Origin: an uncultured Lachnospiraceae bacterium
Lineage (GTDB): Bacteria > Bacillota > Clostridia > Lachnospirales > Lachnospiraceae
Length of the DNA: 38,439 nt
Assembly (NCBI GenBank): GCA_947626915.1
Contig: CANQUA010000030.1
Span: 1-38,439 of the forward strand
Direction of reading: 5' to 3'
Position 1 is the first letter of the stretch. Each line of letters begins with the position of its first letter. Under the pieces are notes generated by a model. That model saw only the letters and a list, made by a program, of their open reading frames with translations, was not told the origin of the DNA and did not search any database. Positions 19,701 to 32,369 of this stretch are shown in pieces. The position numbers and the translations under genes are program-made.

Positions 19701-20826
19701 CCACTGTATAGTGTTCCAAATCAACGGGACAATCTTTCAGCGCATCTGCCGTCATAGGCTCAGCTTCTGTAAGATCACCCATTAATCCGCTCTTCATCTC
19801 TTCATAAAATGCGTCGTTCTCCCCCGCAATTTTATATCTCACCTTATACTCAACTAAATCTGACTTCAAATCAACTCGTATGATATAGTCAGCCTGATCT
19901 TTCCCTTCCGGCAATGTCATTGTCGCTGTTATCTTCCCACTGTTATATTGAAGATTTGTCAGTCCTTCAGCCTCACTGCTGACAGCCACAGTATAGTACT
20001 CCGCAGCCTCTACATCATAAGAGAACATCGCAGAACTGCCGTTGTCCGGTTCCAGAACCGTTGAATCTACCTTTTTGAGTATTCCATTTTCGTAAATTTG
20101 TATATTAACAAAAAATTGTTCAATCGGATTGATGCTAATGTCTCCAAATTTTCCTTCATATACCGCAATCGGCATAATTGGATTGGTATACACTGCCTTA
20201 TACCCATCCATCACTCCATACTCAATCACAGCAGTCGCCGCGCCGTCTGTAAAATCTTCCGCGGTCACTACCGTATCGCCGGATGTGACTTCCATGCCAT
20301 CTTTATGGATTGCATTTTTCAGAATATCATAACCGCCGGCCAGCTCACCCTCAGATAAAGTATGAGTGGTCGTCTCATGGAACTGCATCTCGCCCCATAC
20401 GGCGATTTCTGCAGTTAAGACATGATCGATTGTCAGAACATAAGATGCTGGTTTCTCTGGCTGGAGTTCTTCCTGCTCAGCCGGAGCAGCTGTCTCAGAC
20501 TCACCCTCCGCGCCGGGGACATCGTTCGTTACTTCGTCATCCGACGAAGTACCCCCCCCGCGCAATCCGGTATCCGGATCTACGCTCATACCCGGGTCAA
20601 GTTCGGTGCCGGGCACCACAACAACCGGTCCCTCTGTCTCCGGGGCCGTACTTTCATCTGCCGCATTCGACGGCGTCGCCGTACCGCTCTGATCCGATAC
20701 GGAGGGCGTCGACGGAAGCGTATAGACCGGTTCTGCCGCCCACGCCGTGGTAACGCCCGTGAGCACATTCAGCGTGATCATGACCATCGCCATGAAACTC
20801 GCTATCACTCTGTCCATCTTCTTCAT
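10705..20826 (-). CDS. Giant LPKTG cell-wall-anchored surface protein A with about 17 DUF11-like repeats
   Basis: 3373 residues, secreted and wall-anchored. The signal peptide is residues 1-31 (basic start, hydrophobic core, AWAA). An acidic Ser/Thr/Pro stretch and N-terminal beta domains follow; residues about 400-1120 hold several InlB/MucBP-like modules (patterns such as GYEFKGW, GYIFTGW, GYRFDGW). From about 1127 to 3170 there are about 17 DUF11-type modules of 105-120 residues, recognised by a TKT...ETAEFDI-VNTGN...VTDTM pattern. A NPGEP/NPNEP repeat spacer, three acidic VPL motifs, LPKTG (near residue 3338), a hydrophobic helix and VKKRRDEED complete it. GGGAG lies 8 bases before the ATG. 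Probably a stalk-like adhesin; the ligand is unknown. It has its own promoter 100 bases upstream, next to a class B sortase. Confidence 0.93.
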   Translation of the reverse strand: MKKMDRVIASFMAMVMITLNVLTGVTTAWAAEPVYTLPSTPSVSDQSGTATPSNAADESTAPETEGPVVVVPGTELDPGMSVDPDTGLRGGGTSSDDEVTNDVPGAEGESETAAPAEQEELQPEKPASYVLTIDHVLTAEIAVWGEMQFHETTTHTLSEGELAGGYDILKNAIHKDGMEVTSGDTVVTAEDFTDGAATAVIEYGVMDGYKAVYTNPIMPIAVYEGKFGDISINPIEQFFVNIQIYENGILKKVDSTVLEPDNGSSAMFSYDVEAAEYYTVAVSSEAEGLTNLQYNSGKITATMTLPEGKDQADYIIRVDLKSDLVEYKVRYKIAGENDAFYEEMKSGLMGDLTEAEPMTADALKDCPVDLEHYTVGKIVQQKIEGAGIVIEVIYTPNTYYVFYETDVDETVGPYIQPTQGKFGTSVTLVAAGQVPELEGYEFKGWSMTEGGDTSITSVELNTANVVGEGVHVYAIWAPVSVDYTLVYMTENADDDEYSYAGSVKMSALTGEEVTADRTSKTPSGFDTQHFTFESAERATVAGDGSTVIPVYYARNEYTLTFKEVSCGENEHEHTAQCYVLGRLACKQTAHQHNNNCFKGKSYELTAKYEADIRQKWKETVGYEKSWIWTGSSYTQAQVKMPGENKDVVEYLDTEGPIKQTLTYFVEVDSEAAGAFLDRDSYFKEFMSYITYTDKKSGLFGGYTTFPTKDEEFFEIDGYDRDYQRTNVKFNSNNRGEWQGDNKFYYTRKKYELKLYNVNGNGKDTTQQVPYTAHIKPLVNEEANSNLTFDGWYIDPEFTTQMVIDETTTMPKGLVLYGKWSTEMVTVTFEDEQFNTSIEQQSVPKGSGLKNGAPKLESQKGYIFTGWKDAAGNVFTGRDPIDESMTVYAQWEEVTTTSYTVRYVDENGSPFSNGGITLAEEVYPGYESGSTIIVKAKPVDGYIPAPLSYELTLSSDPEKNVITFTYTAVANVTYTIRYWHDNTDGEPFEKRVEPSRLVAAASFTVIADSKIVSDQAMHNYRLEETSKILELSGNNETNVVDFVFVKAPFTITYDLDGGTEPDNPKEYYADNLVDNPITLKNPTKDGYRFDGWEMDADTRVSESSGNAHNKQETVIEAGTYGDLAFKATWSLWWPDLSVSKKAVNAEAVKKLGETIQYTITVKNEGLWKLGKLIPGCWPIENIVVTDGLDEAKVVSDNGYTVNEDGNAVIERLEPGEKVSVTVEYTVTEANLGTDGNNKKLTNTATATGEAVAGTIKKSVTGSASAEVMIEPGKGKLEIEKTLTNQPADPEGFKADETATFDIVVKNTGNTTQYNVEVKDTMTGAKIVAGKGYEVDANGTATIKEIPINESVTVKAEYTITQADIDDQTKLANTATVEGNGDVTGPEPVPIPTEAKDSGLTATKTLTNGTNEDGSTKKFKAGETAEFDIVVENTGNTTQKTVTVSELLINRTTDADAVIVEGEGYELADGTAVIKDLAPSASVTVKAKYTITAEDVKNAAENKDGLLNSAIVEGDGQDVQPMPVPIPVDGERYGLSISKELNNITDQGYQIGNIVRYQIIVTNTGIEDLTQIHVEDAKFDGRFINASQAYSRDGHVLTFDKLEPGKTIVITYEYTVTSDDVEKGTITNVAYAWAKELPNRKNAKVTISTVEADVQFELLKEVFNEDGEKAETAKFGEKLTYKITVTNSGTVDLRGFLSDTFKGGTGELSALEVDAAASSEGVVLDGNTLRIPSGGIAVLTAGYIVREEDVTQDGEGRKLINTAKLEVEHNGLYETKKSQVETQVEDAEPHLTVTKKVKDPKTAYELGDKITYVIEVKNTGNVTLFDTKLIDAMLNQKWDIEKLKPGEAITKETDSYVVTEDDIRVGKITNTASAAGKTGYGESVKGAGSVYAHPAVKRPSLVVEKAADENHLTDVKLGDTVTYTIIVTNNGNVTIRDIVVKDPLTNGEEAIWTGELAPGARKTVTTKYKVTEEDILNGSVENVATATGKAPDNAEVEAEGTATIYTEEKDPHLAVKKTVLGNKNYGFELGKEITYRIHVTNTGNVTLTDVTVTDELTGTESKKIGGLAPGEEKVVEVTYVVTVDDIEAGTITNTAKVTGKDPDGSEVTGSGSVTVTTEKKKPSLTTTKTLTNKGSGKDGAFKAGETAEFDITVTNSGNTVQSNVIVTEQLEGATIVAGTGYTINEASQAVIAELAPGAEVVVKATYTVTQADIDSDAELKNIALVEGDNGEKPDPEPEITIPEETKAPGLTTTKTLTNKGSGKDGAFKAGETAEFDIEVRNTGNTTQKNVVVTDTMGGAKIVAGEGYTVNMDGTVTIGEIPVGESVTVKAEYTITQADIDNQTELTNTATVKGEGTTPDPDPAEIPTEEKNPGLTTTKTLTNSGKGQNGAFKVGETARFDIVVKNTGNTTQQDVVVTDTMAGAKIVAGEGYTVNANGTATIGEIPVGESVTVKAEYKITQADIDNQTELTNTATVEGEGPTPAPEPEPIPTEEKKPDLEVSKMVLHTNQGYELGSTVEYHIKVKNTGNITLAEIKVTDELTNDEWSIESLAPGATWEEYTSYTVTEADILKGGVVNTARAEVTVDGEKKSDQYSVVIYTVKKNGHLTIKKETTSEPANDNAYALGETITYSITVTNDGNLTITNVVVTDKLTNSEWTINSLAPGESRTLNTSYVVKEADIIRGHVVNNAVATGESPDPDKPDVPVTPGTADVPTQTARASLHVEKTADKPANAAVGDVITYTITVTNNGNETVTNIRVTDPLTGLDQNVGTLAPGEAATVTTTYTVTENDILNGKVTNTATATGINRDGNRVEDSGTAAVDTVVKNGHVTVTKETTSSPANGEAYVLGETITYSITAKNDGNLTVTDITVTDELTGDMWPIASLAPGASQTFTATYVVTEADVLAGKVVNVATVTGTTPDPEEPEVPVEPGEKEVPVEPKAGHVTVTKETTSSPANGEAYVLGETVTYSITAKNDGNLTVTDITVTDELTGDTWPIASLAPGASQTFTATYVVTEADVLAGKVVNVATVTGTTPDPEEPEVPVEPGEKEVPVEPKAGHVTVTKETTSSPANGEAYVPGETITYSITVKNDGNLTVTDIVVTDELTGNAGENAWTIESLAPGASQTFTATYVVTEADVLAGKVVNVATATGVSPDPDKPEVPVEPGEKEDPVGTNPGEPENPNEPQNPGEPENPGEPENPNEPQNPGEPENPNEPQNPGEPQNPGEPENPNEPVNPNEPQNPNEPQTPNEPQTPAGPVNPNPAEAANPREESSPAEAEQETLLENIEDETVPLSDMPSVELPTANVTDPEDWLVDISDAEVPLAPSNHMAEIDDEGVPLSDLPKTGDMGAVGSLLGLLAALGAMGAAVKKRRDEED
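11665..12354 (-). repeat. Two near-identical tandem 345-bp units (115 residues each) in giant gene A
   Basis: Units 12010-12354 and 11665-12009 are nearly identical at the DNA level, differing by scattered single bases. A third, more diverged copy starting at 11664 has a 3-residue insertion. Each encodes one DUF11-like module beginning GHVTVTKETTSSPANGEAYV. Such identity points to recent duplication or ongoing gene conversion, with room for length change by recombination. Confidence 0.92.
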
Positions 20827-20929: not shown

Positions 20930-20963
20930 ATTTTATCACGCGGAATATCACCAAACGTATCAC
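20930..20963 (-). promoter_or_regulatory. Activator-type promoter of giant gene A with three GTGATA repeats
   Basis: On the leftward strand, GTGATA occurs three times at exact 12-bp steps (20958-20963, 20946-20951, 20934-20939). The last one overlaps the -10 box TAAAAT (20930-20935). There is no -35 consensus; the repeats occupy its place. An A-rich tract lies just upstream (about 20964-20990). The same arrangement recurs at three other promoters in the locus. Direct repeats about one helical turn apart over the -35 region are how SARP/BTAD activators bind, so the two BTAD regulators here are the natural candidates; that link is inference. Confidence 0.75.
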
Positions 20964-20995
20964 ATTTTAAATTTTTTTTCCTTTTTTTGCAATAT

Positions 20996-21931
20996 TCAGT
21001 GATCCGTTTTGATTTTCCTGGCGAATACCATCAGACGGCTGTTGTTCTGGGAATACTCGCAGGTGGTCAGGGTCAGCAGCTGCTGAGGCCATTCGGGGGT
21101 GATGCCGGTGTCGTAATAGCTCTCGGCTTTCACGGTGGACACCAGGCGGTTGTAGCTTTCTTCGTCCTCCGCCAGCAGGTCGCTGAGAAATTCGTCGCTC
21201 ACATTGTCGGCGGATACGCGGATCGCCCCGAACACCTCATACTCGGCGTATTCCGTGAGCGTGTCGAACACGATGACCGGATGTTCCTCGAAATAGGAAC
21301 GCCCTTTGTAGCCTTCCAGCTTCGCGAACATGGAGCCGTTTTTCATATGGTGGCCGTAGAGCAGGTAGTTGAGGCCGCCCGTCTCCAGGTTGCAGGCCCC
21401 GTCCATGTAGATCATGCCGTAGGCGGATTCGCTTTTGTCGAACCCGTGATGAAGGTAAAAATCACGATCCTGCGGCGTATACATGACCGGATAATCGATC
21501 ACCGTGCCCTCGATGCGGATCCAGCCGATGACATCGCTGTTCTGCTCCTTCACCGCCGCGTACTGCTCCAGGCTGCGCCCTTCCATGCTGATGGAATAGG
21601 CGGCGGCCGGTTCGGCGGCGGCCCGCACGATGACGACAGGCTCAGGCTCCGTTTCCGCCTCGGTGGTGCTTTCGGTTTCTTCCGGCACAATTTCTGCCGG
21701 CGAGGTTTCCTCCGGCCCGGCAGCCGGCTCTGTGACCGCGGCTGCGGCAGTCGGCGCAGATTCCGCCGCCGCGCCGGCGCTTTCCATGATCTGGTAGATT
21801 TGTTCCAGGTCTTTATCGCCCTGCCGGTATTCCCACAAGGTGTGGAAAAACGAGTATCCGAACCACAGGGCGGCGAGTCCGCTGATCACCATGCAGATGG
21901 TCCATATCCGTTTTTTGATTTTGTTGCTCAT
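20996..21931 (-). CDS. Class B sortase
   Basis: A 311-residue membrane-anchored transpeptidase. One N-terminal membrane segment (about 9-29) is followed by a long Ala/Glu/Thr/Pro linker (about 52-112) and the catalytic domain. The catalytic His is in YGHHMKNGSMF (His194), the Cys in TLTTCEY (Cys291) and the Arg in NNSRLMVF (Arg299); these motifs are those of class B enzymes. It should cut sorting signals and join proteins to the wall; its evident clients are the two LPKTG proteins here, although classical SrtB enzymes prefer NPxTN-like motifs. AGGAGGAGG precedes the ATG, 28 bases after the BTAD regulator, so the two are cotranscribed. The giant gene A promoter begins 33 bases after its stop. 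Confidence 0.92.
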   Translation of the reverse strand: MSNKIKKRIWTICMVISGLAALWFGYSFFHTLWEYRQGDKDLEQIYQIMESAGAAAESAPTAAAAVTEPAAGPEETSPAEIVPEETESTTEAETEPEPVVIVRAAAEPAAAYSISMEGRSLEQYAAVKEQNSDVIGWIRIEGTVIDYPVMYTPQDRDFYLHHGFDKSESAYGMIYMDGACNLETGGLNYLLYGHHMKNGSMFAKLEGYKGRSYFEEHPVIVFDTLTEYAEYEVFGAIRVSADNVSDEFLSDLLAEDEESYNRLVSTVKAESYYDTGITPEWPQQLLTLTTCEYSQNNSRLMVFARKIKTDH

Positions 21932-21959
21932 CAGACCTCCTCCTTCCGAATAAGCTCCT

Positions 21960-23183
21960 TCACCCGGCCGGCGGCGAGCCCGCTACGGGTTTCACCTGGT
22001 ACGCCAGGTCCGCCTGATTGGACGTCATGGCGCGCAGCTTGTCGGAGATCCTGCGGGAAATGGCGGCGCAGTCCCCGCCGCGGACATTCATGACCAGGAT
22101 CAGGAATTGGGACGCGCTGTACTGGGTAAACACGTCGCCCTGGCGCAGGCTGGTACGGATCGCGGTGCGCAGCGCCTCCGACCGTTCCTTCAGCTTTTCT
22201 TCATTAGATATCGGCTTGCCCTCGTAGTCCACCAGCACACACATCATCAGGTAAATGGACATGCCGGTCCGTTCCATATTGCGGCTGAGCAGATGGTAAA
22301 TGTCCATGAAGCTGGAGTACGCGCAATAATACGCGCCCGGGCCGAACCCTTCGTCCGGCGACTCCGTCAGCGAATCGAAAATTTCTTCCAGCGTGCCGGA
22401 AGGGGAGACATTCTTCTCGCCCATGCGCCGGTAAATCTCCAGCATCCGCTCCGGCGGCGTCAGGCCCCGTTCGTTGGAATAGAGGCGCACCGTCTTATTG
22501 TAGAGCTGCCGCGCTTTTTTGAATTTGCCGCCGGCCAGCAGCGCCTCCAGCAGATCGCTTTCCCAGTCCTCCAGCGGGTACAGCCGGACGGCTTTGTTGT
22601 AAACGGTCTCCATGGCCGCGTAATCCCGGTTCCCCCTGGCGGATTCGCCCAGGATGCGCACACATTTCGCAAACATGCGCTTATATTTGACGCCTTTTTC
22701 GTAGACCCAGAGCTGGTTCACTTTATCCGCAAGCAGGTCGCCCTGGTACAGTTCGAAAGCGGCCTGACAGCACGAAACCCGTTCCGCCAGGCCGGCGCTG
22801 CCGTCCGCCCGCAGCATCAGTTCCTCAAATTCCAGGGCGTCCACCCACACGGGCACGCGTTCGTCCGGGACGTACACGCCGTTCCGGCGGACGATATATT
22901 CTCCCTCGGGCAGGCCCGCGTTCTGCATCTGAAGCCGCATCCGGTACACCAGCGTATTGAAGCTGCTGTTCACATTGTTGATCACTTCCCGGTCATACAA
23001 TTCCTCAACCAGCTTTTCTTTCGTGATGCCGCGGCTTCCCTGCAGCCATACCAGCTGCAGCAGCTGCACGAACCTGGCGGAGGAATTTCTGCCCAGGGCA
23101 ATCTCCTGCCCTTTGTAAGTCATTGAAAAGCCGCCCAGCATTTTTACTGCAATCAGATCGCCGGCGCGTTCCTGTGGATGCAT
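21960..23183 (-). CDS. BTAD (SARP-like) transcriptional regulator with degenerate GGDEF-like C-terminus, paralog 1
   Basis: 407 residues, cytoplasmic. Residues about 10-110 form an OmpR-type winged helix of the SARP kind (MLGGFSMTYKGQEIALGR; helix around VNSSFNTLVYRMRLQMQ). Residues about 115-265 are the BTAD helical repeats. Residues about 285-390 follow the layout of a GGDEF domain, but the signature position reads YSASQF, so no cyclic-di-GMP synthesis is expected. It is about two-thirds identical by eye to the regulator at 31146-32369. GGAGGG lies 7 bases before the ATG. It leads into the sortase gene. Likely an activator of the four repeat-bearing promoters in the locus (inference). Confidence 0.85.
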   Translation of the reverse strand: MHPQERAGDLIAVKMLGGFSMTYKGQEIALGRNSSARFVQLLQLVWLQGSRGITKEKLVEELYDREVINNVNSSFNTLVYRMRLQMQNAGLPEGEYIVRRNGVYVPDERVPVWVDALEFEELMLRADGSAGLAERVSCCQAAFELYQGDLLADKVNQLWVYEKGVKYKRMFAKCVRILGESARGNRDYAAMETVYNKAVRLYPLEDWESDLLEALLAGGKFKKARQLYNKTVRLYSNERGLTPPERMLEIYRRMGEKNVSPSGTLEEIFDSLTESPDEGFGPGAYYCAYSSFMDIYHLLSRNMERTGMSIYLMMCVLVDYEGKPISNEEKLKERSEALRTAIRTSLRQGDVFTQYSASQFLILVMNVRGGDCAAISRRISDKLRAMTSNQADLAYQVKPVAGSPPAG

Positions 23184-23287
23184 CGTCTTTCCCTCCGGGC
23201 AACGACGGCAGCCCGGTCACTGCGTTGCCGTACCGGACTCCATCAAACGTACCCTCTTGAAAACGTTCTGACAACAAGCGGATTCCC

Positions 23288-23316
23288 TGTATAAGGCAAT
23301 CCATTCTCATTGTAAA
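23288..23316 (-). promoter_or_regulatory. Candidate promoter of the regulator 1-sortase operon
   Basis: Leftward TTTACA (23311-23316), a 17-base spacer and TATACA (23288-23293), about 105 bases before the regulator ATG. It lacks the GTGAKA repeats of the locus, so the regulator appears not to share the promoter type of its presumed targets. Confidence 0.5.
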
Positions 23317-23413
23317 CAAAAATTCCGGGAAGCGCAAGAATCAATTGTTAAAAAGGGCAAAAAAATTGCAGGATTACACAAAAGAGCAAAAATATTCCAT
23401 TTACGGGACTGTC

Positions 23414-23624
23414 CTATATTTCTTTCTTCCGCCCCCAGCCGGTCAGCGCCGCGAAAATGAATACGGCAAACGGCGCGAACCTGTAAATAATTGAGGGCGG
23501 AAGTCTTGAACCCGTTCCGCCTGCAGAACTCGGCTTCGCTCGGCCCGCTGGATTTCGGCTCCCCGAGGGCCATGGGCCGGAACTCCGCCCGTTCCTCCGT
23601 TGACATGTCATCTGTAGGTTTCAT
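23414..23624 (-). pseudogene. Small gene with C-terminal membrane segment, apparently frameshifted
   Basis: A start ATG at 23624 has a good GGAGG 9 bases upstream and opens a frame beginning MKPTDDMSTEERAEF. About 40 codons in, the plausible continuation is in the +1 frame: GSRLPPSIIYR, a hydrophobic segment (about APFAVFIFAALTGW) and a basic end (GRKKEI), stopping at 23414. In the original frame the sequence continues to 23307 but looks non-coding. One extra base would explain it: a broken gene, a sequencing error, or programmed frameshifting. Intact, it would be a peptide of about 70 residues with one C-terminal membrane segment. No family recognised. It lies between giant gene B and regulator 1. 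Confidence 0.35.
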
Positions 23625-23632
23625 AAGAAAGT

Positions 23633-23679
23633 ACCTCCGTTTCTGAGATTGATAAACGTATTATCTCAAAAACGAAGGT
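23633..23679 (-). promoter_or_regulatory. 17-bp RNA hairpin that sequesters the ribosome binding site of the small gene
   Basis: The leftward transcript carries ACCTTCGTTTTTGAGAT (23663-23679) and, after a 13-base loop, ATCTCAGAAACGGAGGT (23633-23649). They pair over all 17 positions with two G-U wobbles. On the opposite strand those positions would be A-C mismatches, so the structure fits the leftward RNA. The 3' arm contains the GGAGG that serves the ATG at 23624. Confidence 0.65.
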
Positions 23680-23735
23680 GCTTGAAAATCGGTTTGTTTT
23701 GTACCGTTTACGCGGCATTTCCTCTGCACGCAATA

Positions 23736-23764
23736 CCGGCGCGGTCTTTCGGGGCCCGCGCCGG
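23736..23764 (-). terminator. GC-rich 9-bp hairpin after giant gene B, without U-run
   Basis: Leftward CCGGCGCGG, an 11-base loop, then CCGCGCCGG, 78 bases past the stop of giant gene B. The stem is perfect, but no U-run follows, so it may set the mRNA 3' end or attenuate read-through rather than terminate fully. Confidence 0.45.
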
Positions 23765-23841
23765 CAGCTTCATTTCAGTCATTCGATTTTTCATCAGCGG
23801 AAGATTTTCCCGCCGCGGTACCCATTTATCGGACTTCCGTT

Positions 23842-26800
23842 TTATTCGGCGTCGTCCTTCTTCCGGGCACTCAGCGCTCCGAACATACCCATCATACCCA
23901 GGGCCACCAGAGCAAGCATTCCGGCCAGCCCCGCATGGGCTTCGTCACCCGTCTTCGGTAACGCGGCCGTCAGCGGTACGTCCTCATCGAAGATCTCTTC
24001 CTGCGGCGCGCTGGTCAGCGGAATCGCCTCATCAACGATCTCTACCGGCGGGAAATCAGCCAGCGGAACTTCCTCTTCCTCTATTTCGACCATCGGTTCT
24101 GCCTGCTCGGTCGGATTCTCCGGGCTCGGTTCAGTCGGGTTCTGCGGATTCGGCTCGTTAAAATTCGTCGGGTTCTCCGGACTGGTCTCGCTCGGGTTCG
24201 TCGGGTTCTCCGGGCTGGTTTCACTCGGGTTCGTCGGGTTCTCCGGGCTGGTCTCGCTCGGATTGGTTGGGTTCTCCGGACTGGTCTCGCTCGGATTGGT
24301 TGGGTTCGTCGGATTGCTGGGATTAGTCGGCTCCTGCGATCTGTTATTATTCACAACAACTTCCGCTGTCTCTCCCGCCACAATCGTGCCGGTCCCATTC
24401 CTGTAAGTTACCTCGTACTCCCGATAAGTGTCCTCAAGCACACTGTACCCGATTCCCTCAGGCAGGCCAACTGCCTTGGCGGTCTCGTTGGCCTTCAGTT
24501 CTACAGTTGCCTGGTTGTTCGTAAATACCATACCTCCGAACGTTCCGTTTATCACTGCTCCTGATGTCGGAGTCAGTGTAATCGTGAACCGGAAAGCCTT
24601 GTCAGTTTCCGCCGCGTTGCCGCTGACCGTCTTGGTGACGGACAAATCGCCGGTCCGCACCGGAATATGGGTGTTGGTGATCGTGAAGGTATCACTGCTG
24701 TAAGAAGCGGTGTAGCCGGTGATTTCGCCCAGTTCTTCGACCGTGTAGGCGATTTCCTTACCGTCTGCATTCTTCGGCAGATTCGTCCATGTATGACTCC
24801 AGCCATTCTCCGTATTCAGCACCACAGGCTCACCTAATGCTGTACCGTCCGCAAGCAACTGTACCTCGATGCTGGTCGGCCTCAGGTTATCCTGGTTACC
24901 ATTATCCTCCCAGACCTTCGTGACCGTTCTCGTAACAGTCGGCTCTGTGGGCTCCGGCATATGCGTGTTCGTGATCGTAAAGCCGGTCTCTGTTCCATCA
25001 GCTGCCATAAGCGGCTCCACCTCGGAAGTGTAGCCGGCCGGGACGTTCGTCTCTTCGACCGTGTAGATGATCTCTTTTTCACCAGCATTCTTCGGCAGAT
25101 TTTCCCACTTGTAGGTCCAGTCGTTTGCCTTATTCAGCGTCACAACTCCCCCGTGGGCCACTCCGTCCGCAAACAGCTGCACCGTGACACTCTCTGGCCT
25201 CTGGCCATCCTGGTCGTCATTATCCTCCCAAACCTTCTCCACGGCCAAATCCAACGCTTCATAACGATTTGTGAAGGACGCCGTCTCATTAGAAGACTCG
25301 CTGTCATCTGCCTTCGTATAAGTAGTTGTAGCTTTAAGAACCCCATCTTTCTTCTCAACGACAACTGTCACATTCCAGACAGTCTCATCATATGTCCAGC
25401 CTTCGGCATTTCCTTTTTCTTCGACAATTGTATAGTTATAGGTGCCTTCTTCCTCATATTGAATTGTTTTAAATGTCTTGCTGCCTTCCCCTGTAATTTC
25501 GATGGTATCGAGCGCCTCTTCACCTTGCTTGAGAATAAATGTAAATTTCTCATCTTTAGGTGCATCACTACCCTCTATCGTCTTTTTAACCTTAAGGGAA
25601 ACCGACGCAGCCGGTTTATTCGCAGCAGTCATAGTCATGGGATTGGAGTCTGACCCAGCCGTGACCATTTCTGCCTTTGCATCAAGAATCTCAAGTTTCG
25701 CCGTTGATGAATCATCCGTTGTCTCCTCTTCCACCCGGAATACAACAGGCTCTTCCATTCTCTGATAACCTGCAGGTGCAAAAGCCTCCACCAACGCATA
25801 GTTCACATTATTTGTAAGGAGCTGCCAATTAATATTAATCGTTCCGTCTGAGCCGGTTTTATAAACCGCGACAGGCTCCAACGCTACTCCATCGTACGCA
25901 ACCGTTTCCTTGCCGATTCTAGTTGCTTCATCGGCAGCTGTTTTGTTATCCAGCCACGCACTATTAGGCGCATAAAGAATAAACTCAGCGTTCTGAAGAC
26001 CTGCGCCATCTGTAGTATTCGCCGTCTTCTTCAACGTGAATGCATAAACGGAGCCGCTGGCGCTGGCATTAATTTCACTTGTTTGGAAACTCCAAACATC
26101 CTCATCCTGAATCGGCTTCTTTCCAGTGACTGTAACCCCATTTGTAATGGAAACATTCTCCGCATTCTTCCCTGCCTCTGTAAGAACATACTCATAACTC
26201 ACACGCAGATGCGTTTGGTCAGGGACCTGAAGACTAAACATGCTGTCCCCAGAAGTTTCATTACGGAGGTAACCGGTTCCTTCCTCAAGCAAACTCCAGC
26301 TTTCATTTTCGAATTTTTCAACTGTAAGGCTGTCTCTCTCCAGGCTCAGGTTCCCGTTCTGATTGGCTTCGTCCGTAACAGTCAGCCACTCTCCCTCCGA
26401 AAGTTTCAGAGCCTGCTCGTTAATCTCCACAGAGAAGGCTACCTTACCGTTCTTAAGGGCTGCGGTTTTCGTTAAGACGCCTGTGCGTACCTCAAGATCC
26501 TCCTCTACAGAAGCTAATTTCCCACCGTCCCATTTCATCCACGCTTTATTATGGATCGTGAGTTCTGGTTTTTCTGCACTCAGGGCGGCTGAATCCTTTA
26601 CTTTAAGCCGATATGTGAAACAATACGTATATTGTCCGCCTTGCTGATTAAAGTCATGCTGAAGATTTTCGCCATCCGGAGCCACAAAATCCGCCCAGGA
26701 CGCAGTGATCTGATTATCTTTTACAGGTTCCACTTCGCTTTGATACTCAAAAGTCTTTGTTCTGCTTCCATCCGGATAAGTACGCGTAACCTTAATGGGC

Positions 26801-29640
26801 CCTATAAACTCCATTTGCTCATCAAACGTATCACGGAATACGATCCCCTCGGCATCGTTAGGAATAGCACCGTCGTTCTGCTCACCATTATGGAAAGACA
26901 CAGAGTACGTGACAATGCGGCCGAAATCTTCCGGATCAACACTTACTTCTCCTTTTTTCTTCAGCGGAGCGACCAGATTCAACTCCTCCCTATCCACATC
27001 GCCATGTCCGGCCACAATTCCATAAGCCTTATTACTGACTACGGTATCGCCTTGCGCAGCCAGATATTCGGCCAGAGTCTGTCCTCGCTTATACGTATTT
27101 ATCCCGGAGCCAGTCCAGCCATAATTACCCGAATCATCAGCTCTTTCTCCTTCAAGATAACTCTTTTCCGGATGAATAGTATAATGAAGCGTCAATGTTA
27201 CATCATGCTGGGCCCATGCTCCTGGATATTTCCCTTTTACAGCTTTCACAAATTTTTGCTGTTCTTCTGAAGCCTCAGGATTCCCACAATAATCATATTC
27301 TTCAGGATCGATCACAATAGCGGTCCAGCCATACATTTTCTGCTCTGCCGAATAATCAAAGCGAATCAAAGCTCCATTGGAATCATACTCAACATCCCCA
27401 GTTTGCGGATACGGATAAACGGAGTATATCTTATAATTCGTAATATCTGTAATATCTTCTGTATGTTTTTCCGCTCCCTCCATCCACGATGCAGTAAACG
27501 ACGTAATCTCCATTCCCGTAGACGTATCAACCCGCAGTGTGTCGCCAGCTGTATTAGGATTAGGAACTGTCAGCCGATCGAGAATGGCAGCGCCCGCATT
27601 GTAATAACCATGATTGGAGATAAGCTCCTTGTCAACTTTAACAGTAATCGTGTACTCTAAATCACTGCCATTACTGCCGAGATTACCTGTTTTTTCAATA
27701 TCTACTCCCTCATGACCAACTGGCACTTTGTCCGAATCTTTCCGTTCTGCATTACCCTCACTGGGAAGTATTGTCGTAGCCGTATTTTCATATGTTCTGG
27801 CAAAGGTAGAATTATAGCGAGTGTAAACACAAATTTTCACAATGTGATTAAAATCACCGTTTTCTTTATTGAGGTGGAAAGTATTCACACCCTCCGGAAG
27901 CGTAATCTCAAGTTTCCGACTTTCTTCATTATAATGTAAAACACTATTATCCCATGAATCTTCTTTATACACATATGTCGCAAGCGCCTTGGAGCCATCG
28001 CTTTCAGCCGTTTTCGTCTTAATGACAACTTTCTCGAGCGTAAGATCATCTGGTATCACGTCGGTCACTTTAGTCCCACCCAAAGGCTGATAAGGATCAT
28101 AAAGCCGGATATCCCAATGAATGAGGCCCGTTCCCTTTTCAATTGATCCCTCTTTTTTCAGATACCCCAGGAATACCGTGTACGTCTCGTCATCCGTAAT
28201 CGGAGTACTCCCCTCAGATGTCCCTCCATCCGGTGAAACACTAACCTCATTGTGTACGTCAAACGATTTCTTCGAATTATCCGGAACATAGCGACTAACC
28301 AACTCACTTACATCTACATCATACGAAATAACTACCTCTCCTTCAGGCGCAAGTTCAACGGAACCGCTCTTCAGAGTGAAGCCATCGTGATTCTCATTCA
28401 CGGTGACTTGAGCAGAAGCCACCGGCTCACCATCGATCTTTATGCTGTCCGAAACCAGCTTCGCTTCCTCCGTTGTAATCGTATCCGTCACTGTCAACGA
28501 TGTAACCGTCTCCTTTGTGGGGTTATAAACAGTTACCTCATAATGAATGTGCTGTGTTTTAGAATCGTAGCCGACTGCCTCTTTCCTCACTATAATATTC
28601 GTTCCGGGATCAGGCTTAAATGTGACCGTGCTGTTGCCCTCCACGATTGTCACATCTTTCAGGTTAGCGCCTTTCTTCAACGTTCCGGTAAACTCAATGT
28701 CGACCTCCTGCGTATATCGGTCCTTGGGTAATTTATACAGGATTGCACTGCCGCCATTTACGATTTTTACGTTAGAATCCTCACTAATAACGCCATCAAT
28801 TGCCTGGATGTCTCCATCCAGCTTAAGAAACATCCATGTTCCATCCGCACAATCTGTCTCCGGGATTCCTGCCTTCCTGAGTTCATCAGCAGTAGCGCAC
28901 CGCATCATCAGACTCTGGTTTTCACCCTCTTCAAAGTGCAGCTTCACCTTATATTGAGCATCAGGATCCATCAATCCCTCAACGCGATTGCCATCGAGCG
29001 TCACTATGTCTACGGATTTCAGGAAATCTGCCAGGTTTCCGGAATCCTTGCGTTTCGACAAAACAACCGCCGCGCCAAACGGTGTCCTTGTATCGGTTGT
29101 ATTATTTCCACTCGCAACGTCTGGCTGTGAGCTGCCGGGGTCGCTTGTATTCGAGCCCGAAGCTACGGGGTCTTCAGCTGTGTATGCCTTTCCCTTAACG
29201 CAGATCGGGTCCGAGGCGATAGTAACGCCGTCAATCCTAACGTTAAACCACTTTTCTTCCAAACTTTCATTGATAAACAGCGCAATCGTCTGCTCCTTTT
29301 TTTTATCATAGAAAACACGCAGGCTCGTATCGTTTTTACCCTCTATTCCCAAGGACAGTTCATAGATGTCAGAACCGTTCAAGAGCTCCTCGCAGCTGCC
29401 GTCCTCATCCTGTATATTCAGACTATCATAACTAAACGGAGTCCGTTCTCCTTCGCCGCTAAGGTCCTGTTTCAGTTGATCAATCGCAGCATTCCATTGT
29501 GCAGAACTAATGTCATAATAAATAACATTCCTATTCGCCGCATACGCAGTACCCACGTCTGCCAGAACCTGTACCAGTACCATGAACACGGTCAGCAAAA
29601 AGGCCAGGCCCCGACGGTATCTCATTTCTAATCCTTTCAT
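23842..29640 (-). CDS. Giant LPKTG surface protein B with pilin-type isopeptide and Cna-B domains
   Basis: About 1932 residues. The signal peptide is residues 1-36 (ends AYAA). A large N-terminal adhesive region of beta domains (about 37-1200) includes DUF11-like modules. A SpaA/prealbumin-like domain follows near 1210-1300 with an E-box (YALVEAFAPAGY). A Spy0128/FctA-like pilin isopeptide domain lies near 1340, two Cna-B domains (VWEDN...RPxSVxVQL) near 1465-1660, and another small beta domain to about 1760. Then come a NPSETSPENPT repeat spacer, three acidic VPL/IPL motifs, LPKTGDE (about 1891), a hydrophobic helix and ARKKDD. The frame extends further upstream, but GGAG lies 7 bases before the ATG at 29640 and the signal peptide starts there; ATG 29643 is also possible. 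Two repeat-bearing promoters drive it. Probably a wall-anchored adhesin. Confidence 0.9.
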   Translation of the reverse strand: MKGLEMRYRRGLAFLLTVFMVLVQVLADVGTAYAANRNVIYYDISSAQWNAAIDQLKQDLSGEGERTPFSYDSLNIQDEDGSCEELLNGSDIYELSLGIEGKNDTSLRVFYDKKKEQTIALFINESLEEKWFNVRIDGVTIASDPICVKGKAYTAEDPVASGSNTSDPGSSQPDVASGNNTTDTRTPFGAAVVLSKRKDSGNLADFLKSVDIVTLDGNRVEGLMDPDAQYKVKLHFEEGENQSLMMRCATADELRKAGIPETDCADGTWMFLKLDGDIQAIDGVISEDSNVKIVNGGSAILYKLPKDRYTQEVDIEFTGTLKKGANLKDVTIVEGNSTVTFKPDPGTNIIVRKEAVGYDSKTQHIHYEVTVYNPTKETVTSLTVTDTITTEEAKLVSDSIKIDGEPVASAQVTVNENHDGFTLKSGSVELAPEGEVVISYDVDVSELVSRYVPDNSKKSFDVHNEVSVSPDGGTSEGSTPITDDETYTVFLGYLKKEGSIEKGTGLIHWDIRLYDPYQPLGGTKVTDVIPDDLTLEKVVIKTKTAESDGSKALATYVYKEDSWDNSVLHYNEESRKLEITLPEGVNTFHLNKENGDFNHIVKICVYTRYNSTFARTYENTATTILPSEGNAERKDSDKVPVGHEGVDIEKTGNLGSNGSDLEYTITVKVDKELISNHGYYNAGAAILDRLTVPNPNTAGDTLRVDTSTGMEITSFTASWMEGAEKHTEDITDITNYKIYSVYPYPQTGDVEYDSNGALIRFDYSAEQKMYGWTAIVIDPEEYDYCGNPEASEEQQKFVKAVKGKYPGAWAQHDVTLTLHYTIHPEKSYLEGERADDSGNYGWTGSGINTYKRGQTLAEYLAAQGDTVVSNKAYGIVAGHGDVDREELNLVAPLKKKGEVSVDPEDFGRIVTYSVSFHNGEQNDGAIPNDAEGIVFRDTFDEQMEFIGPIKVTRTYPDGSRTKTFEYQSEVEPVKDNQITASWADFVAPDGENLQHDFNQQGGQYTYCFTYRLKVKDSAALSAEKPELTIHNKAWMKWDGGKLASVEEDLEVRTGVLTKTAALKNGKVAFSVEINEQALKLSEGEWLTVTDEANQNGNLSLERDSLTVEKFENESWSLLEEGTGYLRNETSGDSMFSLQVPDQTHLRVSYEYVLTEAGKNAENVSITNGVTVTGKKPIQDEDVWSFQTSEINASASGSVYAFTLKKTANTTDGAGLQNAEFILYAPNSAWLDNKTAADEATRIGKETVAYDGVALEPVAVYKTGSDGTININWQLLTNNVNYALVEAFAPAGYQRMEEPVVFRVEEETTDDSSTAKLEILDAKAEMVTAGSDSNPMTMTAANKPAASVSLKVKKTIEGSDAPKDEKFTFILKQGEEALDTIEITGEGSKTFKTIQYEEEGTYNYTIVEEKGNAEGWTYDETVWNVTVVVEKKDGVLKATTTYTKADDSESSNETASFTNRYEALDLAVEKVWEDNDDQDGQRPESVTVQLFADGVAHGGVVTLNKANDWTYKWENLPKNAGEKEIIYTVEETNVPAGYTSEVEPLMAADGTETGFTITNTHMPEPTEPTVTRTVTKVWEDNGNQDNLRPTSIEVQLLADGTALGEPVVLNTENGWSHTWTNLPKNADGKEIAYTVEELGEITGYTASYSSDTFTITNTHIPVRTGDLSVTKTVSGNAAETDKAFRFTITLTPTSGAVINGTFGGMVFTNNQATVELKANETAKAVGLPEGIGYSVLEDTYREYEVTYRNGTGTIVAGETAEVVVNNNRSQEPTNPSNPTNPTNPSETSPENPTNPSETSPENPTNPSETSPENPTNPSETSPENPTNFNEPNPQNPTEPSPENPTEQAEPMVEIEEEEVPLADFPPVEIVDEAIPLTSAPQEEIFDEDVPLTAALPKTGDEAHAGLAGMLALVALGMMGMFGALSARKKDDAE

Positions 29641-29702
29641 CATGATTCTCCTCTCCCTCTTTATTTTGTTTGTGTTCTTCCTATGCCAATCTATGTAACA
29701 AC

Positions 29703-29744
29703 TTATCGGCTGTCCCAACCGCTTAACTTCTTCCTTTCCACCAT
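29703..29744 (-). CDS. Possible 13-residue leader peptide upstream of giant gene B
   Basis: ATG at 29744, preceded by AAAGGAGGGGGAGGCA, encodes MVERKKLSGWDSR and a TAA stop, ending about 60 bases before the giant gene B start. The ribosome binding site is the best in the leader and serves no other frame I can support, which suggests translation. Role unknown; it could couple translation to leader structure. No homology claim. Confidence 0.35.
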   Translation of the reverse strand: MVERKKLSGWDSR

Positions 29745-29898
29745 TGCCTCCCCCTCCTTTAAATATGAATCGCGTACCCGGCCGCACCGCTGAACCCCCA
29801 TGTTTTCGCCCGGCAATACGTTCCGTCTGTCTGCGGCTCTATGAAAATACTGCAGAATTTTACAGATAATTCATCCTGTCTATCTTGATTTTGCTGAT

Positions 29899-29932
29899 AC
29901 TATAACATGACGCCTCTCACCAAACTTCTCAC
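29899..29932 (-). promoter_or_regulatory. Proximal activator-type promoter of giant gene B
   Basis: Leftward GTGAGA (29927-29932) and GTGAGA (29915-29920), 12 bp apart, then the degenerate ATGTTA (29903-29908) another 12 bp on, overlapping the -10 box TATAGT (29899-29904). The expected -35 position reads AAGTTT, not a consensus. Same register as at 20930, 30046 and 31064. Confidence 0.75.
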
Positions 29933-30045
29933 ATTTTCTGTAATTTTTGAACCCTGCATTTTGCGGGCCCTTCGGAATGTTTCATAAACGGCGCCGCTTA
30001 CACGAGAAGCTGCCGGGCGTTATTATTCCGTTTACTTTTAGAGAA

Positions 30046-30079
30046 ACTTTAACATACCGCTTATCACCAAATCTCTCAC
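30046..30079 (-). promoter_or_regulatory. Distal activator-type promoter of giant gene B
   Basis: Leftward GTGAGA (30074-30079), GTGATA (30062-30067) and degenerate ATGTTA (30050-30055), each 12 bp apart, with the -10 box TAAAGT (30046-30051). It is nearly a copy of the proximal site 147 bp downstream, including the shared TTTG between the first two repeats and ATGTTA at the third. Confidence 0.65.
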
Positions 30080-30168
30080 ATCTTTTACAATTTTTGGATT
30101 TCCGCATTCGCCGCCTGCGCGGAGCGGTCCGGGGCGGGAAGCGCCTGCGAACCCCGCTTTTTCCGACT

Positions 30169-30194
30169 AAAAAAGGACCCGCTGTCGGATCCTT
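30169..30194 (-). terminator. Rho-independent terminator after the small ATWQGE genes
   Basis: Leftward AAGGATCCG, ACAG loop, CGGGTCCTTTTTT: a 9-bp stem with one wobble followed by a U-run, about 55 bases after the stop of the 146-residue gene. It insulates the small-gene transcript from the giant gene B promoters. Confidence 0.85.
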
Positions 30195-30247
30195 GTACTA
30201 CTATGACCGCCGCCTGATTTAGTTTATGCGCCGCCGGGCTTTTCTGC

Positions 30248-30688
30248 TCATGCGGCGCCTCCCTGCAGGGACCGGTCGATCCATTTCAGCAGTTCCAGTA
30301 CGCTGAGAAACGTGATCTTCTCCTGCCCTTCCACCCAGACAGCCTCCCCCTGCCAGGTAGCGTTCTGCCGGTACTTGACGTGGATCACAAATGTGCCCAG
30401 CGCGCCTTTTTCTGCCGGCATCCAGTCCTGGTTCCGTTCGCCCAGAACAGACTTTTTCATCTCATGAACCGCATCGTCCGCAAACGACCTCACATAGGTG
30501 GAGCGCTGCGGGAAATTCCAGCGGTCGTACCACAGCTCCATCTGCCGGACCATATCGGCAAGGCCGCGGAACTCGCACCCTGCCTCATCATACTGATTCC
30601 AAATACTGCCCGCGTAATCATCGTCCTCTCTGCTCCTGACGCAAACGCAGACCAGGTTCGGGGCATACATTTTATACTCTGCCGCCAT
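30248..30688 (-). CDS. Small acidic protein with C-terminal ATWQGE motif
   Basis: 146 residues, no signal peptide or membrane segment, so probably cytoplasmic. The C-terminal 50 residues (FVIHVKYRQNATWQGEAVWV then LELLKWIDRSLQ) are clearly related to the 70-residue protein encoded just upstream. The N-terminal 95 residues are specific to this protein, with a CVCV stretch and an RQMELWYDRWNFPQR segment. AAGGAG lies 7 bases before the ATG at 30688 (a TTG codon precedes it in frame). No family function known to me. Second gene of a two-gene unit driven by the repeat-bearing promoter at 31064-31097 and closed by a terminator. Confidence 0.75.
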   Translation of the reverse strand: MAAEYKMYAPNLVCVCVRSREDDDYAGSIWNQYDEAGCEFRGLADMVRQMELWYDRWNFPQRSTYVRSFADDAVHEMKKSVLGERNQDWMPAEKGALGTFVIHVKYRQNATWQGEAVWVEGQEKITFLSVLELLKWIDRSLQGGAA

Positions 30689-30737
30689 CAAACCGCTCCT
30701 TGCTTACCCATGCCTTCTGCTAACCGGCCGAAACGCA

Positions 30738-30950
30738 TCACGCCTGCTGCATCTGCCGGCTGTCCGCCAGCTGAGACTCCTCCACCGCCCTGTCTATGAG
30801 TTTCAGCAGTTCCAGGGCGCTTCTGAAATACTGCTTTTCCTGCTTCTCTACCCAGGTGATCTCTCCCTGCCAGGTGGCGTGTTCATTATAAATAATTCTC
30901 ACAATAAATTCTTCGCGGATATTTTTTCTGGCTGCCCGTTTTTCTTCCAT
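30738..30950 (-). CDS. Small protein consisting of one ATWQGE motif domain
   Basis: 70 residues, probably cytoplasmic. After a basic start it reads EFIVRIIYNEHATWQGEITW, then VEKQEKQYFRSALELLKLID, and ends in a Gln-rich tail. It is the minimal form of the domain that ends the neighbouring 146-residue protein; the conserved core is ATWQGE, a WVE-QEK stretch and an amphipathic SALELLKLIDR helix. AAAGGAGA lies 6 bases before the ATG. Gap of 49 bases to the next gene. I do not recognise a function; a small adaptor or regulatory partner of the surface system is a guess from context. Confidence 0.75.
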   Translation of the reverse strand: MEEKRAARKNIREEFIVRIIYNEHATWQGEITWVEKQEKQYFRSALELLKLIDRAVEESQLADSRQMQQA

Positions 30951-31063
30951 GAATGATCTCCTTTCCGTCCGTGCCGCAACCCGTTTCCTGTTACAGTCCT
31001 CGGATCATCCGGTCCTCCCGCGTGCGCCCCCGCCGCGACAGGCAACCTCCTTGTTATTGAATC

Positions 31064-31097
31064 ATTATGGCAAACCGGTTATCACCAAAACTATCAC
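31064..31097 (-). promoter_or_regulatory. Activator-type promoter of the small ATWQGE genes
   Basis: Leftward GTGATA (31092-31097) and GTGATA (31080-31085), exactly 12 bp apart with GTTTTG between, and the -10 box CATAAT (31064-31069) in the same register as at the other three sites. The third repeat position (TTGCCA) is not conserved. It lies between the stop of regulator 2 and the start of the 70-residue gene. Confidence 0.7.
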
Positions 31098-31145: not shown

Positions 31146-32369
31146 TCAGGACACCCTGGCCACCGATCTCACCTGGCACAGCAGCTCCGCCCGGCTCGTC
31201 GTCAGCGCTCTCAGCTTGCCGGTGATCCGCCTGGCAACGACGCCGCAGTCCTCGTCGCGGATATTCATAACCAGGATCAGGTACTGGGAAATGCTGTATT
31301 TCGTAAAAATGTCTCCCTGGCGCAGACTGACGCGGATCGCCTGGCAGAGCGCTTCCGACTGCTCTTTCAGTTTTTCCTCGTTCTGCAGGGCTCTCCCTTC
31401 ATAATCGGCCAGCGTACACATCATCAGGTACATGGAAATGCCGGACCGCTCCATATTGCGGCTCAGCAGACGGTAAGCGTCGATAAAGCTGGGGTAGGAG
31501 CAATAGTACGCGCCGGCTTTATCATAGTCGTCCATGGGCTCCCGCAGCATACCGACGATCTCGTCCATCGTGCCCGGGCAATGAACCAGCTTCTCGCTTA
31601 ACCGCTTATACGCCTCCAGCATCCGTTCCGGCGGCGGCAGTCCCAGCTCGTCGGAATAGAGTCTGACGGTTTTATTATACAACTCAAGGGCTCTTTTGTA
31701 TTTACTCTGGGCCAGGAGCGCGTCCATCAGGCCGCTTTCCCATTCCTCCAGCGGATAGAGGCCTGCGGCTTTGCCGTACACCGTCTCCATGGTCAGGTAA
31801 TCCCGCCCTGCCCTGGCGTATTCGCCCAGCCAGAGCACGCATTTGCTGAACATTTTCTTGTATTTGATCCCGCTTTCCAGCACCCAGAGCTGGCCGGATA
31901 CGTCGGACAGCAGATCCCCCTGGTACAGATCGAAGGCGGCGCGGCAGCAGGCGGCCTTCTGTTCCGGATCGGCGGTCTGTTCCGCCTGTTCCATCAGGGC
32001 TTCGAACTCCTGCGCGTCGATCCACACAGGCACGTTTTCGTCGGGCACATACAGGCCGTTCCGCCAGACGACGTATTCTCCCTCAGGCAGACCGGCGTTC
32101 TGCATCTGGATCCGCATCCGGTAGACCAGCGTATTGAAACTGCTGTTCACATTGCTGATCTCGACCCGGTCGTACAGAGCCTCTACCAGCTTCTCCTTGG
32201 TAATGCCGCGCCGGCCCTGCAGCCAGACCAGCTGCAGCAGCTGAACGAACCTGGCGGAGGAATTCCTGCCCAGAGCAATCTCCTGCCCTTTATAGGTCAC
32301 CGTGAACCCCCCCAACATCCGTACCACGATTCTATTGTCTTTATTGTCTTCGCGTTCCTGCGGATACAA
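31146..32369 (-). CDS. BTAD (SARP-like) transcriptional regulator with degenerate GGDEF-like C-terminus, paralog 2
   Basis: 407 residues, same length and domain order as the regulator at 21960-23183: winged helix (MLGGFTVTYKGQEIALGR), BTAD repeats and a GGDEF-like fold whose signature position reads YSISQY. The start codon is TTG at 32369; it is supported by GGAGG 9 bases upstream and by alignment of its first residues (YPQERE) with those of paralog 1 (HPQERA). Parts of the gene are also close in DNA sequence to paralog 1, so the pair arose by duplication. The small ATWQGE genes follow directly under a repeat-bearing promoter. Presumed activator of this locus; which paralog binds which promoter cannot be told. 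Confidence 0.85.
   Translation of the reverse strand: MYPQEREDNKDNRIVVRMLGGFTVTYKGQEIALGRNSSARFVQLLQLVWLQGRRGITKEKLVEALYDRVEISNVNSSFNTLVYRMRIQMQNAGLPEGEYVVWRNGLYVPDENVPVWIDAQEFEALMEQAEQTADPEQKAACCRAAFDLYQGDLLSDVSGQLWVLESGIKYKKMFSKCVLWLGEYARAGRDYLTMETVYGKAAGLYPLEEWESGLMDALLAQSKYKRALELYNKTVRLYSDELGLPPPERMLEAYKRLSEKLVHCPGTMDEIVGMLREPMDDYDKAGAYYCSYPSFIDAYRLLSRNMERSGISMYLMMCTLADYEGRALQNEEKLKEQSEALCQAIRVSLRQGDIFTKYSISQYLILVMNIRDEDCGVVARRITGKLRALTTSRAELLCQVRSVARVS

Follow-up and report, generated by a model that had tools for sequence, protein, structure and literature searches.

What controls the giant surface-protein genes of an uncultured Lachnospiraceae bacterium is the question raised by contig CANQUA010000030.1 (GenBank assembly GCA_947626915.1), whose 38,439 nucleotides, analyzed as a whole, are referred to here as the window. 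Its minus strand carries two giant genes for sortase-anchored proteins and two small ATWQGE genes behind four copies of a direct repeat, GTGAKA-N6-GTGAKA, and two regulators with a BTAD domain are encoded at the same locus. The initial annotation interpreted this arrangement as a regulon reserved for surface proteins, with the BTAD regulators as its readers. That description is supported but is too narrow, as the same phasing occurs more widely with other words, the promoters have an extended −10 element, and a LytTR regulator is also a member. Comparison with related loci indicates that SARP-like activators with a degenerate GGDEF-like tail, together with private operators that co-evolve with them, probably control the ATWQGE and giant surface genes. 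The four sites of the window thus appear to be one case of a wider rule, in which the 12-bp scaffold is constant and the word varies with the regulator.

The four minus-strand sites are present as first described, with TTTG before the second repeat and a −10 box at N10. Site 1 (20930–20963; GTGATA-N6-GTGATA, N10, TGA-TAAAAT; 5′ to 3′, GTGATACGTTTGGTGATA TTCCGCGTGA TAAAAT) is the candidate promoter/operator of giant gene A. Two tandem candidate promoters lie upstream of giant gene B, namely the proximal site 2 (29899–29932; GTGAGA-N6-GTGAGA, N10, TGT-TATAGT; GTGAGAAGTTTGGTGAGA GGCGTCATGT TATAGT) and the distal site 3 (30046–30079; GTGAGA-N6-GTGATA, N10, TGT-TAAAGT; GTGAGAGATTTGGTGATA AGCGGTATGT TAAAGT), and their flanks are partly alike. 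Site 4 (31064–31097; GTGATA-N6-GTGATA, N10, TGC-CATAAT; GTGATAGTTTTGGTGATA ACCGGTTTGC CATAAT) is the candidate promoter/operator of both ATWQGE genes. The common layout is GTGAKA-NN-TTTG-GTGAKA-N10 followed by the −10 box. In a search of the window allowing up to one mismatch, GTGAKA-N6-GTGAKA was found at five places, all with 0 mismatches and with site 1 counted twice, while 100 shuffles gave a mean of 0.62 and none reached 5. No −35 match was detected in the four window sites: the best hexamer at spacers of 15–19 agrees with TTGACA at 2/6 positions, in line with the earlier remark that a −35 consensus is lacking. TGN stands directly 5′ of the −10 box in 6/6 sites of the genome (the four in the window and two others described below), and these six sites resemble extended −10 promoters lacking a −35 element. 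Giant gene A does carry the three GTGATA copies reported for it, but the third was set aside as an operator copy and is read mainly as the extended −10, because it overlaps TGA-TAAAAT and because the syntenic promoter of a relative (genome G020) has ATGATA in its place while retaining TGA-TAGAAT.

Six matches to the core GTGAKANNTTTGGTGAKA are present in the 3.18-Mb source genome (G000), and the pattern read backwards has none; the 34-bp pattern including the −10 box, with up to 2 mismatches, returns the same six sites and adds no other. The two sites outside the window precede a LytTR response regulator gene on contig C54 (LytTR domain, 1.5e-18; a perfect site 61–78 bp upstream) and a giant-A-like surface gene on contig C69. 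The proposal that only the giant LPKTG genes and the ATWQGE genes lie under such sites therefore holds within the window, but the genome adds these two. The LytTR regulator heads a same-strand gene run (C54, locus L082, 561–8817) that includes a calcineurin-like phosphoesterase, a weak match to Wzy_C (O-antigen ligase) and a DUF4832 protein, and that may be a set of genes for an envelope polysaccharide. The giant-A-like gene (C69, locus L083, 10659–12106) has its frame broken after 104 codons near a G run, with a homologous frame following; this may be a sequence error or phase variation.

Both regulators of the window belong to one family. BTAD2 (31146–32369, minus strand) is a SARP-like protein of 407 residues with a winged helix, a BTAD domain (E = 7e-14) and a degenerate GGDEF-like C-terminus, and BTAD1 (21960–23183, minus strand) is its paralogue, with 67–68% identity and an identical recognition helix, NVNSSFNTLVYRMR. 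Among 50 aligned regulators, the Pfam models matched were BTAD in 50/50, Trans_reg_C in 34/50 (E ≤ 0.01) and GGDEF in 24/50; Trans_reg_C gave no match in the window's BTAD2 alone. The family profile matches AfsR residues 36–252 over the winged helix and BTAD (E = 1.5e-15), EmbR (structure 2fez, 7e-8) and, at its C-terminus, diguanylate cyclases (E = 1.3e-7). Judged by these sequence matches, the C-terminus qualifies as GGDEF-like. The GG(D/E)EF catalytic signature is absent from the rows compared, the window proteins having SISQY or SASQF and 12 other aligned rows an SxSQY-like sequence, and domain searches of these regulators revealed no receiver domain.

The homology to AfsR suggests how such regulators could use the repeats. 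In the AfsR study, two protomers sit side by side on 11-bp repeats at −40..−30 and −29..−19 and contact the first 8 bp of each (−40..−33 and −29..−22); the AfsR box overlaps the −35 element, AfsR grips sigma region 4, and base contacts are made by R92 and T88 (PMC10936776). In the present promoters, with the −10 box taken to span −12..−7, a head-to-tail regulator pair, bound with a 12-bp offset to two half-sites of 8 bp each (NGTGAKAN in this case), would occupy about −41..−34 and −29..−22 and thereby cover the usual −35 place. The downstream protomer would then take the AfsR position, and the upstream one would be displaced by 1 bp. In the profile alignment, residues 81, 83 and 84 of the regulators correspond to AfsR Y89, S91 and R92. 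These AfsR-like half-site positions and aligned helix residues make SARP-like action likely, with the regulators as activators on extended −10 promoters. The direct repeats would then be the operator of both BTAD regulators encoded at the locus, and the bound pair would hold RNA polymerase on a promoter with only an extended −10, so that the ATWQGE genes and the giant sortase-anchored proteins are switched on, with the LytTR regulator and another surface gene as further regulon members elsewhere in the genome. In relatives, each BTAD regulator would drive its neighboring ATWQGE/surface module with the same geometry but its own word, which would change along with residues 81–84 of the recognition helix. 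We infer from these comparisons that the regulators bind the repeats, that they activate rather than repress, that a signal is involved, and that the GGDEF-like domain has a sensing or dimerizing role.

The same binding could have the opposite outcome, with the BTAD regulators acting as repressors that occupy the spacer and −35 region and keep polymerase out until they are released by a signal. The repeats do overlap the promoter, and an extended −10 promoter can work without an activator. The four promoters nevertheless lack a −35 match, their geometry fits the AfsR activator complex, and the BTAD domain is named in Pfam for activators, which together render repression rather unlikely.

Activation from a fixed geometry is thus the favored reading, and its geometry extends beyond GTGAKA. 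Upstream DNA of related BTAD loci in the genus shows repeats at the 12-bp phase with other words. Loci were therefore compared that had been collected by the ATWQGE protein, not by the promoter; the 79 loci from named genomes are mostly from Lachnospiraceae, with a few from Peptococcaceae, Butyricicoccus, Neobittarella and Clostridiaceae. A strict promoter test required, within 350 upstream bases, a hexamer repeat of at least 5/6 followed by TGNTANNNT, at periods of 7–26 and spacings of 4–17. At period 12 with spacing N10, 26/79 loci pass, whereas other periods reach at most 3/79 at any spacing, and 30 shuffles of the upstream DNA averaged 0.1 and never exceeded 1. Perfect hexamers are found in this arrangement in 11/79 loci, and neighboring spacings at period 12 are also high, since the repeat extends beyond 6 bp. 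The period of 12 bp instead of the 11 bp of Streptomyces SARPs, already noted for the window, is therefore general: period 11 reaches at most 2/79 under the strict rule, and a looser one (6/6 repeat, without TG) gives at most 4/79 at period 11 versus 12 at period 12. By comparison, 6/634 other genes of the same loci pass the strict test, as do 2/39 giant genes lying just behind an ATWQGE gene.

The genes themselves are linked as well. A BTAD gene lies 5′ of the ATWQGE gene on the same strand, at a distance of up to 650 bp, in 51/79 loci, and one is present somewhere in the fetched stretch in 60/79. In 65 loci the sequence continues for 3 kb or more past the ATWQGE gene, and in 36 of these a frame of more than 700 residues starts within 3 kb. 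ATWQGE proteins occur in 72/397 genomes of the family. A slightly looser rule applied to the 79 loci, the window and 20 further stretches gave 110 places, comprising 40 intergenic ones before an ATWQGE gene, 22 intergenic ones elsewhere and 48 inside long frames, although it misses window site 4 (CATAAT) and a site in genome G015. The 40 places before ATWQGE genes amount to 33 distinct ones because seven contigs were fetched twice, and 32 places fall in 29 of the 79 loci. Nine of the 22 places elsewhere precede giant surface genes, one precedes the LytTR gene and 12 are chance-like, while at least 3 of the 48 in-frame places (L115, L145 and L151) are ATWQGE promoters overlapped by a spurious frame. 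As a separate observation, an inverted repeat of the AAAAGGC...GCCTTTT type encloses the repeats in the CGTG-type class (L132, L133, L140, L157, L159 and L161); a flanking inverted repeat was found at 9/40 sites (6 when only distinct sites are counted), where the null averaged 2.9 and never exceeded 6.

Across loci, the word varies with the recognition helix of the linked BTAD regulator. Pairing each operator with the nearest 5′ BTAD gave 36 pairs, window included. The helix SSFNTLVYRMR goes with GTGAKA, SLNNTIFRLR with GAAAKA, SLNSLIYRLK with CGTGCCAG, KSINNLLWRLR with TGAGATAA and NLNNLLYRLKK with TGAGWCA, while YQ helices go with TATGATW and NNLRVTxHR with TAATG. Among 30 pairs below 85% identity, the Mantel correlation between operator and DNA-binding domain is r = 0.59 (p = 0.0005, the minimum with 2000 permutations). 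Given the C-terminal domain, the partial correlation is still 0.47, whereas the reverse partial is 0.003. For all 34 full-length pairs, from which the truncated L090 and L097 were dropped, the corresponding values are 0.64, 0.46 and 0.02. At the level of single residues, half-site position 4 is A in 26/26 half-sites of the 10 regulators with F or H at residue 83 but in 1/62 half-sites of the 26 regulators with Y or W, and position 2 is G in 74/82 half-sites with R at residue 84 but in 1/6 with Q (3/12 when the weaker sites of L105, L114 and L129 are included); these half-site counts are not independent, as the regulators are related, the classes were defined after inspection, and p-values computed from the counts call for caution.

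The class words also recur in whole loci, scanned with the omission of eight loci that have other residues. GAAAKA pairs occur in 8/11 T81/F83 loci and in 0/44 loci of the three other classes. TAATG pairs (NTAATG) occur in 4/7 T81/H83 loci, in 1/28 Y/R loci (L152, which also has T81) and in 0/20 others, and GWGANA pairs (position 5 being T, C or G) in 7/28 Y/R loci and 0/27 others. The Q-class word is found in 4/9 Q84 loci, but in 3/28 Y/R loci too. New sites obtained in this way lie 54 bp before an ATWQGE gene (L149), 73 bp before an LPXTG gene (L156) and 6 bp before an ATWQGE gene (L152); the class-word matches of L142 and L129 were already in the earlier site listing. Across the 397 family genomes, GAAAKA gave 13 matches in 10 genomes versus 7 in the control, five of them before an ATWQGE gene, two before a signal-peptide-like gene, four in long frames with no such gene nearby and two unclear. 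The GTAATG word, searched without its leading base, gave 28 matches versus 15 in the reversed control, with five before ATWQGE or signal-peptide-like genes and most inside long frames, and was rejected as too loose for a family-wide scan. The genome-wide signal of the class words is real, but it stands on a chance background of similar size, as seen from the control counts and from the 7/13 and 5/28 matches that precede the expected genes. Five of the 28 TAATG matches belong to genome G248 (contigs C5, C21, C24 and C54); one of them is followed by an ATWQGE gene and two by signal-peptide-like genes, and G248 thereby offers another instance of a small, dispersed regulon.

Likeness among sites and agreement with regulators could also arise from shared ancestry or shuffled promoter copies, without regulator binding. 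The shared parts in the flanks of window sites 2 and 3 and the duplication of loci together with their regulators are of this kind, and given the DNA-binding domain, the operator still correlates with ATWQGE distance (partial 0.28, n = 24). Yet period, spacing and extended −10 stay constant across different words, and the operator follows the binding domain more closely than it follows either the C-terminal domain or the ATWQGE protein (partial 0.49 given ATWQGE distance, n = 24). Ancestry by itself is thus a very improbable explanation. Sites, geometry, statistics, gene linkage and covariation are all observed directly in the sequences, and activation by regulators with private operators would account for them.

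The exact core of the GTGAKA pattern occurs in 3/26 genomes of the genus searched (G000, G015 and G020), with one match in G020 in the backwards-pattern control, and these three carry close BTAD regulators, with identities to the query of 100/68% in G000, 75% in G015 (an N-terminal fragment) and 64% in G020. BTAD homologues with E ≤ 0.001 are present in 18/26 genomes, but identity above 50% is found only in G000, G020, G017 and G015. The G020 site (C175) lies between the BTAD-sortase genes and a giant gene, in a synteny like that of the window, and the G015 site about 75 bp 5′ of a BTAD gene cut by the contig end. These positions agree with the expectation that a motif scan would find sites near such genes in genomes encoding the regulators. 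In G017, a site with 2 mismatches lies 1.4 kb from the close BTAD gene of that genome; the remaining 2-mismatch matches in the genus are a coding-type repeat in G001 and a site in G017 (contig C4) just 5′ of an ATWQGE gene, at another BTAD locus. Two BTAD regulators split into two frames each, in G017 (contig C3, L088, 10208–11451) and G001 (contig C16, L097, 9496–10843), are possibly decayed or misassembled. Over the family, 49/397 genomes match with up to 2 mismatches, 48 besides the source genome, and many of these matches are variants of one GATATCTTTGGTGATATTTTC coding-type repeat (not annotated one by one), which we take to be the GDIFGDIF stretch of DnaJ. A family-wide GTGAKA regulon was accordingly rejected, and the matches do not indicate that the motif is conserved in relatives lacking the BTAD regulators. 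That another factor, such as the LytTR response regulator of contig C54, binds the repeats with the BTAD proteins as bystanders is scarcely credible, for although LytTR proteins bind direct repeats and that gene has its own perfect site, across 30 loci the operator word covaries with the DNA-binding domain of the BTAD proteins but shows no such relation to the remainder of these proteins, and the exact-core genomes are those with close BTAD regulators.

Besides the residual correlation with ATWQGE distance and the dependence among half-site counts, several observations weigh against activation by BTAD regulators with private operators. The strict promoter test is failed by 53/79 loci; in some of them fewer than 80 bp separate the BTAD gene from the ATWQGE gene behind it, an operon-like layout in which the promoter would lie elsewhere. 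BTAD genes themselves rarely carry the site (1/60 pass), the most distant loci (L172–L180) have no convincing site, and L104 and L155 have a site but no BTAD gene in the fetched stretch. The G015 site has TACAAT without a TG extension. In the window, the sequence does not tell BTAD1 from BTAD2 as the acting regulator.

The ATWQGE, giant and sortase genes of the locus are likewise all on the minus strand. ATWQGE gene 1 (30738–30950; 70 residues) is the proposed target of site 4, and ATWQGE gene 2 (30248–30691; 147 residues) follows downstream. In the window (30248–30950) and the alignments, the protein has a long form of about 150 residues and a short form of about 70, the latter retaining only the TWQG-FRSALELLKLID end. 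For this protein, no Pfam family scored above the cut-off (the best being at chance level), and neither an NCBIfam match nor a solved relative was found. Giant gene B (23842–29643; domain search on 23842–29628), its start placed at the ATG of MMKGLEMR, encodes Cna_B/FctA/SpaA domains and an LPKTG anchor. Giant gene A (10705–20826) encodes 3373 residues of the sortase-anchored type, its LPXTG-type end being recognized by regular expression only, and a sortase gene (20996–21931; E = 6e-16) lies between BTAD1 and giant gene A.

OmpR/PhoB response regulators likewise place a winged helix on head-to-tail direct repeats about one turn apart; unlike them, the present regulators have a BTAD domain, and no receiver domain was found. 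LytTR response regulators bind direct repeats, with a consensus of repeated GTTN-type 9-mers, before surface or virulence genes in Gram-positives, but their fold differs from that of BTAD regulators, and one LytTR gene here lies under a site. The closest likeness is to AfsR and the Streptomyces SARPs, which share the OmpR-type winged helix with BTAD, a pair of direct repeats overlying the −35 region and a poor or absent −35 element (PMC10936776). The present system differs in its period of 12 bp instead of 11 or 22 bp (no period other than 12 exceeded 3/79 under the strict rule), in its extended −10, in a degenerate GGDEF-like C-terminus in place of NOD/TPR, in its targets, which are surface proteins and not antibiotic genes, and in its phylum, Bacillota. 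The gap from the 3′ repeat to the −10 box is 9 bp from the 8-bp word or 10 bp from the hexamer, depending on the repeat bounds, the SARP criterion being 8 bp. EmbR of Mycobacterium shares the winged helix and BTAD but has a C-terminal FHA domain where the present family is GGDEF-like (PMC10936776). Among the open-access titles and abstracts searched, none tied BTAD/SARP regulators to Lachnospiraceae or other gut commensals, to Blautia, or to GGDEF or LPXTG proteins.

More tentatively, a large and varied set of paralogous SARP-like regulators might give each giant surface module a private, insulated operator on a rigid scaffold of 12-bp period, N10 and extended −10, with residues 81, 83 and 84 as a readable code and the degenerate GGDEF domain sensing a nucleotide, so that the cell could choose its surface coat. 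Adhesin control in gut Lachnospiraceae is little known. If the proposed control is correct, it would provide a rule for predicting the regulator of a given giant surface protein in these bacteria, and the 30 non-redundant regulator–operator pairs would form a natural series for testing the recognition code of SARP-type winged helices. It would also mean that the SARP mode of activation, familiar from actinobacterial antibiotic genes, serves surface proteins in gut Bacillota as well, where the helical phasing is different.

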